Positions 50,838-53,826 of a stretch of 53,826 bases of DNA are shown here, in pieces. Positions within the stretch are counted from its first letter, which is position 1, and each line of letters begins with the position of its first letter. The translations under genes and the position numbers were made by a program. Source of the stretch: Bacteroidia bacterium (GTDB taxonomy: Bacteria; Bacteroidota; Bacteroidia; Bacteroidales; GWF2-35-48); NCBI GenBank assembly GCA_016212695.1, contig JACREX010000079.1, forward strand, positions 1 to 53,826, in the 5' to 3' direction. The notes under the pieces were generated by a model. The model had not been told where the DNA came from. It saw only the letters and a list, made by a program, of their open reading frames with translations, and ran no database searches.

Positions 50838-51785
50838 ATGAACCGTATAACTCAGCTTTTCAATATCAAATATCCCATAATCCAGGCCGGTATGATCTGG
50901 TGCAGCGGATGGGAACTGGCTTCCGCTGTGAGCAATGCCGGGGGACTTGGCCTTATCGGATCAGGTTCCATGACTCCGGATATCCTGCGTGAACACATTC
51001 AAAAATGTAAGAAGGCGACCGACAAACCTTTTGGGGTGAATGTTCCCATACTTTTTTCTTTCTCCGAGGAATTCCTTAAAATCATCATTGAGGAAAAGGT
51101 AAAGATTGTTTTTACCTCTGCAGGAAATCCTGCAAAATATACAACATTTCTCAAAGCGGCCGGACTTACTGTAGTTCACGTGGTAGCCAATGTGAAGTTT
51201 GCAAAAAAAAGTGAAGAGTCGGGCGTTGATGCCGTTGTTGCCGAGGGCTTCGAGGCAGGCGGACATAATGGTAAAGAAGAAACAACCACTATGGTATTGA
51301 TCCCCTTGGTTCGTGAATCGGTTTCGATCCCATTGATTGCTGCCGGAGGTATTGGTACCGGCCGTGGGATGCTTGCCGCTTTTGCATTAGGCGCTGAAGG
51401 GGTACAAATCGGTACCCGTTTTGTTGCAAGCCTTGAAAGTTCTGCACATCCTGATTTCAAAAAGAAAATACTTGAAACAAAAGACGGAGATACACACCTT
51501 ACACTGAAACGTATTGTCCCTGTGAGGCTGATAAAAAATAAATTTTACGAAGAGGTAGAAAAACTCGAACTCACCGGCGCACCGCTCGATGCCTTATCCG
51601 CCCTGTTGGGAAGAGGACGGGCTAAAAAAGGAATGTTCGACGGAGACCTCGATGATGGCGAACTCGAAATCGGGCAGATATCAGGACTTATCAATGAAAT
51701 AAAGCCTGCTGCTGATATTGTAAAAAAAATTATAAATGAATTCACACAAGCCAGGAACGATCTTGCAAAATACGATTTAGCCTGA
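50838..51785 (+). CDS. Nitronate monooxygenase-family flavoprotein
   Basis: MNRITQLFNIKYPIIQAGMIWCSGWELASAVSNAGGLGLIGSGSM...GVDAVVAEGFEAGGHNG...PLIAAGGIGTGRGMLAAFALGAEGVQIGTRF. Confidence 0.9.
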   Translation: MNRITQLFNIKYPIIQAGMIWCSGWELASAVSNAGGLGLIGSGSMTPDILREHIQKCKKATDKPFGVNVPILFSFSEEFLKIIIEEKVKIVFTSAGNPAKYTTFLKAAGLTVVHVVANVKFAKKSEESGVDAVVAEGFEAGGHNGKEETTTMVLIPLVRESVSIPLIAAGGIGTGRGMLAAFALGAEGVQIGTRFVASLESSAHPDFKKKILETKDGDTHLTLKRIVPVRLIKNKFYEEVEKLELTGAPLDALSALLGRGRAKKGMFDGDLDDGELEIGQISGLINEIKPAADIVKKIINEFTQARNDLAKYDLA

Positions 51786-51871: not shown

Positions 51872-52181
51872 ATGGCCACGTACGATAATCTGCCTGTTTA
51901 CAAAGCAAGTTATGATTTGCTAGTTGAAATATTTCAATTTGTTAAGAACTTTAGCAAGGAATATAAATATACTGTGGGCGAAAAGCTGAAAAATGAAACG
52001 CTTGAAATGATAATGAATATTTTCAGGGCAAACAGCAAGGGAGAATATAGAAGTTCTTCGTGTATTATTAAGGCTGATAAAAGATTTAAAGCAGATAGAT
52101 TTAAAAAAATTTGTAATCATAAATGAAAAAATTGAAAATGTATCAAAGCAGCTTGCCGGATGGCAAAAAGCAAGCAATTAA
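51872..52181 (+). pseudogene. avd: DGR accessory variability determinant (Avd-like four-helix-bundle protein), frameshifted
   Basis: Frame 1: MATYDNLPVYKASYDLLVEIFQFVKNFSKEYKYTVGEKLKNETLEMIMNIFRANSK. Frame +1 from 52038: RENIEVLRVLLRLIKDLKQIDLKKFVIINEKIENVSKQLAGWQKASN* (stop 52179-52181). Confidence 0.82.
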
Positions 52182-52350
52182 AATACTGGTCGGAGTTTCT
52201 TTTGCTATTGTAAAAGAAAGTGTACCGTTTTAGTCCAATAATCTGCTTATGCAGTAAATACTGTAAAATAAAAACAGTGTGTATAAGCTATGTAATTTTG
52301 GCTGACTTAATGTAGCCGGTCAAAAGAGTTAAATGATTATTAAAACAGTA

Positions 52351-52532
52351 GGTCCTTCGGGTTATCGCAATACGAATGGCAATTACAACAATCGTGGTAA
52401 CAACACGAACGTGTGGACTTCTACTGAGAGTGGCGCAAATGCGTGGAATCGGAACTTGAATTACACGATCACGCAGGTCAACCGGAATACCAACAATAAG
52501 GCTTATGGCTTTTCGGTGCGTTGTGTTAAGGA
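52351..52532 (+). other. DGR template repeat (TR), probable template RNA region
   Basis: Translates to GPSGYRNTNGNYNNRGNNTNVWTSTESGANAWNRNLNYTITQVNRNTNNKAYGFSVRCVKD with 16 AAY (Asn) codons; sits between avd and RT; resembles the FISUMP/C-type-lectin-like VR terminus (GYR...WTSTES..AW...GFSVRCVKD). Confidence 0.82.
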
Positions 52533-52540
52533 CTGGAAAT

Positions 52541-52566
52541 AAAAGCCCCGTTTTCACGGGGCTTTT
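52541..52566 (+). terminator. Perfect hairpin immediately 3' of the TR (terminator and/or RNA 3' structure)
   Basis: AAAAGCCCCG-TTTTCA-CGGGGCTTTT, 10-bp perfect stem with 6-nt loop. Confidence 0.8.
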
Positions 52567-52581
52567 ATAAAAATAATAAAA

Positions 52582-53653
52582 ATGGAACAATTATCCTTAT
52601 GTGATAAACAAATTGAAGGTATTCCCGTAACAGACCTTTTCACGGCCTATTATGATGCCCGAAAGAATAAAAGAAAAACGATGAATGCACTGTCGTTTGA
52701 AATGAACTACGAAAGCAGCCTGTTTCAGTTGCATGAAGAAATTATAAACAGGAAATATGTGATAAAGCCAAGTATATGCTTTATAAATTTCAGCCCTGTT
52801 CAGCGTGAGATATTTGCAGCCGATTTCAGGGACAGGATAGTTCACCATCTTATTTTTAATTACATCAGTCACGTATTTGAGTCTTTGTTAATCAATGACT
52901 GTTACAGTTGCCGTACAGGCAAAGGAACACATTATGGTATAAAGCAAATAGACCATTTTATTCGTTCATGCTCACAAAATTATAAGCAGGAATGCTATAT
53001 CTTAAAACTTGATATAAAAGGATATTTTATGGGTATAAACAAGGAATTGCTTTATAATAAAGTACAACAGTCGTTACTTGACAAAAAAGAAAAATTGACC
53101 TTTGACCTTCCATTAGTCCTGTACCTGATTAAAAGAACTATATTCAACGACCCGACAAAGAATTGTGTCATAAAAGGTAAAAAATCGGACTGGAACGATT
53201 TACCGAAGACTAAAAGCCTGTTTCATGCATCAGAAAATTGCGGTTTGCCGATTGGAAATCTTACCTCACAATTATTCGGTAATGTTTATCTGAACGAATT
53301 TGATCATTGGGTTAAAAAAGATTTGCACATAAAACATTACGGCAGGTACGTTGACGATTTTGTACTTATACATCCAAGCAAAGAATATTTGAAATTATGC
53401 ATTCCGGCCATCCATCCGTGAATATTTGAAAGAAAAGCTACATCTCGAATTGCATCCCAATAAAATTTATCTGCAACATTTTACAAAAGGCGTTAAATTT
53501 CTTGGCGCAGTAATAAAACCATTCAGAATTTACATTGCCGACCGGACAAAAGGTAATTTTTATAAAGAAATTGAAGTACAAAATAAAATAGCGAGAGACC
53601 ATAAACCGAAAAAAGAAGAAAATGAAGCCTTTTTAAGTAGGGTCTGCTCATGA
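52582..53653 (+). pseudogene. Diversity-generating retroelement reverse transcriptase, frameshifted and C-terminally truncated
   Basis: Motifs: REIFAADFRDRIVHHLI, LKLDIKGYFMGINKELL, GLPIGNLTSQLFGNVYLNEFDHW (DGR [ILV]GxxxSQ signature), HYGRYVDDFVLI. Frame broken at 53408-53417 and resumed in ORF 53426-53653 (REYLKEKLHLELHPNKIYLQHFTKGVKFLGAVIKP). Confidence 0.88.
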
Positions 53654-53826
53654 ATGCGACCTGATTTTTTAAATTTAGTTCCAATTTTTTCAAGGAGATG
53701 CTACCAAAAATTCTATTTTTTCAAAAATAATGTTTTTTGAGCTTTTTGTGATACAATAGTTCGGTAAAAATTTGATATTAACAAAGGTATGTAAATAACT
53801 TTTACAACCGACCAGTAGGACAAAAG
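53640..53826. mobile_element. Possible left end of an insertion sequence truncating the RT
   Basis: RT homology stops at ...EAFLSR; the following AGGGTCTGCTCATGAATGCGACCTG... resembles GGGTCTGCT-type IS termini. No transposase is visible before the window ends. Confidence 0.3.

Follow-up and report, generated by a model that had tools for sequence, protein, structure and literature searches.

A diversity-generating retroelement that has probably decayed, and its structured template RNA, in a Bacteroidota genome

We examined a diversity-generating retroelement (DGR) cassette at the 3' end of a contig. The window, that is, the whole stretch of DNA analysed (53,826 nucleotides), is the entire contig C249 of a draft genome (G000; 4.03 Mb, 259 contigs, 90.5% complete) whose relatives are Bacteroidota. 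The cassette lies downstream of a nitronate-monooxygenase-like (NMO) gene (50838-51785), and its parts are all on the plus strand: an avd-like gene starting at 51872, a structured RNA, a template repeat (TR1), a hairpin, and a reverse transcriptase (RT). An initial annotation had described an avd-like gene, TR, hairpin, and RT in that order, and profile matches and coordinates confirm that all of these parts are real; it overlooked the structured RNA between avd and TR. The span it listed (51872-53653) does contain the DGR parts, but its last bases, past 53639, are sequence of an IS element. The features are as follows.

51872..52180, plus strand: avd pseudogene (bAvd match, alignment with intact 113-aa Avds, frames, DNA alignment with locus L058)
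52189..52347, plus strand: structured RNA domain with a conserved fold, lying 5' of the TR and related to Rfam RT-7 (RF03028, our own model R1, covariation)
about 52345..52532, plus strand: TR1, a non-coding Asn-rich template, similar in translation to a FISUMP C-terminus (Fib_succ_major; aligns with the TRs of relatives)
52539..52568, plus strand: perfect hairpin between TR and RT, A-tract/GC stem/T-tract, terminator-like (13-bp stem, fold energy)
52582..53421, plus strand: RT pseudogene, first part, a 279-aa frame with IGNLTSQ and YVDDF (RVT_1 2.2e-11; 70% identity to intact 401-aa RTs; tree)
53410..53417, plus strand: 4-bp tandem duplication ATCC-ATCC, RT frameshift (DNA alignment and frame comparison)
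53418..53633, plus strand: RT pseudogene, second part, in a shifted frame, REYLKEKLHLELHPNK...EENEAF (frame comparison, flank join)
53634..53639, no strand assigned: TAAGTA at the IS insertion point, probable target-site duplication (on both sides of the IS)
53640..53826, no strand assigned: terminal part of the IS element (GGGTCTGCTCAT end), within which the contig breaks off (repeat on other contigs; inverted end on contig C215)

The window very probably contains a decayed DGR cassette, consisting of an avd pseudogene, a template RNA (RT-7-like domain, TR, and hairpin), and an RT pseudogene cut by an IS element, that no longer diversifies.

A DGR reverse transcriptase and three lesions

The initial annotation held that the RT is of DGR type rather than from a retron or group II intron, and several lines of evidence bear this out. 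The best PDB match of the window RT is 8ub7 (1e-25), which we take to be the BPP-1 RT (bRT), and the next is a group II RT at only 1.5e-3. Its motifs fit the [ILV]GxxxSQ and YxDD patterns of DGR RTs, whereas those retron and group II RTs whose motif is readable have QGxxxSP. In a quick RT tree, a branch (SH-aLRT 95) separates off all DGR RTs, including that of BPP-1, and retrons (99) and group II RTs also stand apart; long outgroup branches make the deeper branching order in this tree unreliable. Within the Bacteroidota DGRs, the window RT pairs with the RT of L058 (96). The RT tree, the PDB match, and the order of its parts place the window cassette in the Bacteroidota DGR clade.

A profile search of the RT yielded the RVT_1 match listed above together with NCBIfam group II, Drt3a, and retron matches, all far below their cut-offs. 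These last matches are what could be said for a fragment of a group II intron, retron, or antiviral RT (DRT). We give that reading practically no credence: the RT has SQ in place of SP and groups with DGRs in the tree, its neighbours are Avd and a TR, no group II or retron RNA was found at the locus, and the adenine-specific differences between TR and variable repeat (VR) in relatives, described below, refute it.

Both protein genes of the cassette are broken. The start of the avd-like gene has sub-threshold matches to Pfam bAvd (E 1e-5) and NCBIfam Avd (E 2e-5), which uphold the Avd homology of the small protein noted initially but not an intact gene: codons 1 to 55 are in frame, an out-of-frame deletion of about 32 bp follows at ~52034-52038, and the remaining sequence (RENIEVLRVLLRLIKDLKQI...GWQKASN*) resumes in the +1 frame. 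The RT motifs reported initially are present, but the gene is split between two frames at the 4-bp duplication and ended by an IS junction. The window therefore has neither the intact Avd nor the intact RT that a functional DGR requires.

An IS element interrupts the RT at 53640, and we found both junctions. The stretch 53633-53756 recurs at 94 to 100% identity, flanked differently, on six other contigs, in most cases at the contig end. The RT C-terminus missing from the window forms the end of contig C215, where it lies beside an inverted copy of the IS end, and joining the flanks of the IS gives ...EENEAFLSSMNSYLGIMKHYK... in the RT frame. The join of C249 to C215 is supported by a same-genus genome that carries the same gene neighbours in series: it has NMO, an alpha/beta-hydrolase, acyl-CoA dehydrogenase, and EtfB in a row, and the window genome, read across C249/C215, has NMO, the cassette, the IS, the RT end, and acyl-CoA dehydrogenase, with C215 running on into acyl-CoA dehydrogenase and Etf genes. 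The cassette occupies the place of the alpha/beta-hydrolase gene of the same-genus genome (51786-51880 and the end of C215). We dropped the idea that hydrolase remnants flank the cassette on both sides: a possible remnant on the 5' side is weak (21 of 1,000 shuffles were equally good), and a remnant search of the 3' side, at the end of C215, found none.

We infer that the avd deletion, the RT duplication, and the IS insertion are real lesions rather than assembly errors. Because its proteins cannot be made whole here, the window copy no longer diversifies anything. Among 116 clade-conserved RT positions, four are altered in the window (range among relatives 0 to 11), and loss of constraint as a mark of old decay was not detected at these positions relative to relatives. 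Since conservation of the remaining RT is within the range of relatives, this suggests that the DGR was lost recently. An intact gene whose sequence contains errors would show such normal conservation too; the IS junction does not depend on that explanation.

The template repeat and its missing target

TR1 adjoins the RT and is adenine- and Asn-rich, although its adenine fraction (0.31) is the lowest among 17 TRs. When translated, it resembles the C-terminal end of FISUMP proteins (Pfam Fib_succ_major, 1.7e-9); the Asn-rich segment described initially is confirmed. DGR descent and the proposed class of targets, FISUMP or C-type-lectin-like proteins, both find support in the RT tree, the best PDB match, and the TR/VR pairs of relatives with the same cassette order. 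In the intact state, RT and Avd would reverse-transcribe the TR segment of the template RNA, with errors at adenines, and the resulting cDNA would then replace the 3'-terminal VR of a FISUMP (C-type-lectin-like) gene; we extrapolate these biochemical steps of mutagenic homing from work on BPP-1.

We searched the window genome for the product of such homing. It contains 23 FISUMP-type domain matches, two TRs included, and none of these lies adjacent to the cassette as a target. Among 15 FISUMP C-termini compared in this 90.5%-complete genome, none is a VR derived from TR1 or shows a convincing adenine bias relative to it, and in nearly every candidate around a third or more of the non-adenine positions are mismatched. 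This result counts against activity of the cassette, not against its ancestry. The initial annotation described a cassette that diversifies its targets and is either trans-acting or orphaned; orphaned fits our data, whereas trans-acting and diversifying do not. A functional trans-acting DGR, with frameshifts that are assembly errors and a target elsewhere, would account for the presence of every part in order, the normally conserved RT residues, and the many FISUMP genes. It would have to accommodate three separate lesions, one of them an IS insertion with both junctions found, as well as a target that is not adjacent and a TR1 that lacks any VR with its adenine signature, and we regard it as very improbable. 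Because the assembly is a draft of 259 contigs, a TR1-derived VR or an intact avd could be missing from it, which is evidence to be set against a relic.

Other DGR pieces occur in the same genome, none of them an intact cassette. A second cassette on contig C116 (26541-28515, L117) consists of an avd cut by another gene after about 38 homologous residues, a GxxExxY-motif gene in its place, a second TR (TR2), a hairpin, and an open RT frame of about 408 to 426 aa (RT2) with an in-frame insertion containing CCCTGAGCGGAGTCGAAGGG. Contig C37 (32300-34700, L116) holds DGR fragments only: the start of an avd, a stretch resembling a VR or TR, the C-terminus of an RT, and part of another, different SQ-type RT (IGNLTSQYF...YMDDM), alongside a short transposase-like gene. 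None of the four related small proteins in the genome is another Avd above the bAvd cut-off. Several C-termini fit TR2: that on C139 differs from it at 24 of 55 adenines and 7 of 85 other positions (p 1e-6), that on C227 at 28/55 and 16/84 (p 9e-5), and that on C33 at 26/55 and 21/86 (p 0.004). The genome thus at one time ran a DGR in trans, from a template other than TR1. At C227:890-3085 (L118), several close-set FISUMP domains lie in long frames, and more than one resembles TR2 with adenine bias.

The template RNA in related loci

We found ten related loci in GTDB genomes, and a close RT occurs in 26 of the 393 genomes of the order. In close relatives, a FISUMP target is followed by avd (about 113 aa) and then by TR and RT (about 400 aa). 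Comparing the TR with the VR of the same locus in 13 loci (L056, L057, L059-L063, L069, L072, L074, and L089-L091, some of which are near-copies and hence not 13 independent cases) gave 12 to 42 mismatches at adenines and 0 to 2 at other bases (p 8e-7 to 6e-23), the adenine-only pattern that TR1 lacks. By this pattern, the family is functional as a DGR. In the clade, the stretch 5' of the TR spans about 160 to 260 nt (more in a few loci), and the stretch 3' of it typically spans 57 to 70 nt, in which a GC-rich hairpin is frequent. A gene of ~160 aa lies immediately upstream of avd or the RNA at L058:97-576, L062:2422-2913, and L134; its L062 copy has a weak match to MutS domain I (E 0.0023).

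In the window, the spacer between avd and TR matches RF03028 over its full length with 51.5 bits (E 3.5e-11), below the curated gathering cut-off of 116.8, and most helices of that model are present. RF03028 is the Rfam RNA RT-7, a name that ties it to reverse transcriptases. It matches the same stretch in 13 of 14 related loci with 33 to 83 bits, always below 116.8, the sole exception being C116 of the window genome. Our own model R1, built from 11 spacers, gives 125.6 bits for the window, which is among its source sequences, and has no match in C116 or C37. The 11-spacer alignment has 34 pairs, 22 of them changed on both sides, and 94% of its cells pair compared to 32 to 47% when partners are slid, a large margin, albeit biased in that the structure comes from the same alignment. 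By these comparisons, the spacer is a covarying RNA related to RF03028. The fold is well kept in the window copy, which is a further point against a relic.

Searching the 393 genomes with R1 gave 17 matches, each followed by a TR (17/17), and 12 of the 13 genomes with a match also carry the RT (Fisher 5e-15). For four RNA+TR units, one of them in genome G191 and three in G288, the flanks that were read contain no RT. The G191 unit (contig C69, L128) combines a FISUMP target, RT-7-like RNA, and TR without avd or RT in 3 kb, and its TR and VR have 23 adenine differences and one at another base; a search for an RT elsewhere in G191 was made at E 1e-50 only. In G288 (contigs C5 and C15; L151, L153, and L154), two units are in tandem after avd and one is alone. 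The 5' AAAGAGTGGC/AAAGAGTGAC of the G288 units can pair with the 3' GCCACTCTTT/GTCACTCTTT, with one compensating change.

The hairpin 3' of TR1, reported initially as perfect, is indeed so: its arms (52539-52551/52556-52568) form a 13-bp stem (-21.4 kcal/mol, z -4.5). Most relatives have a hairpin at the same place with other stem sequences. A simple terminator scan made no call at 52539-52568, and "terminator" describes a likeness only. The hairpin follows the TR and not a VR, of which the window has none. In several relatives (L056-L091), TATTTGA-like repeats and then a GC-rich hairpin lie downstream of the VR, recalling the BPP-1 target hairpin.

With fold and hairpin preserved, TR1 could be imagined as a stand-alone template that persists, its own proteins dead, through use by RT2 of C116, whose frame is open; the units without an RT nearby in G191 and G288 would be precedents. 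We consider this improbable, given that the C116 avd is truncated and no other Avd exceeds the bAvd cut-off, that RT2 has an in-frame insertion, and that TR1 is matched by no VR. A cassette that has lost its function remains the reading we favour.

Comparison with known DGRs

Like the BPP-1 DGR (mtd - avd - TR - brt; L135), the window has the order avd, TR, RT, with an SQ-type RT, an Avd homologue, and an adenine-rich TR, but both of its protein genes are broken. The BPP-1 TR lies directly against avd, and a folded 144-nt spacer 3' of the TR recruits RT-Avd and primes synthesis (PMC12875486). In the window, by contrast, the structured RNA (about 160 to 190 nt) is 5' of the TR, and the stretch 3' of the TR measures only about 57 nt, hairpin included. 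Intact Bacteroidota FISUMP-type DGRs, such as L058 (JANTGP010000055.1), L056 (JAKPTX010000171.1), and L061 (JARULA010000003.1), have Avd, RT-7-like RNA, TR, hairpin (most of them), and RT arranged as in the window, and their RTs are about 70% identical to the window RT. Where the window differs is in lacking what these relatives have: open avd and RT frames and a nearby FISUMP target, with an adenine-only VR where TR and VR were examined. DGRs with an RT inactivated by transposon insertion, nonsense mutation, or frameshift mutation are already known (Schillinger et al. 2012, PMC3521204); in those, TR and VR still differ at adenines only, whereas the window has no VR left.

We tentatively suggest, with rather less than even confidence, that the DGR template of this Bacteroidota clade is a separable RNA in which a covarying RT-7-like domain lies 5' of the TR and a hairpin 3' of it, the folded domain and the BPP-1 spacer being on opposite sides of the TR. 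The 5' domain may have taken over docking as a platform for RT-Avd, and free-standing copies may be extra templates for one RT. The window provides a well-documented case of DGR death: it bears three lesions, the IS insertion is pinned down at both junctions, and the genome also holds scraps of other cassettes. RF03028 can now be placed concretely, as the 5' portion of DGR template RNAs, and docking on a 5' domain and the use of stand-alone template genes become testable.
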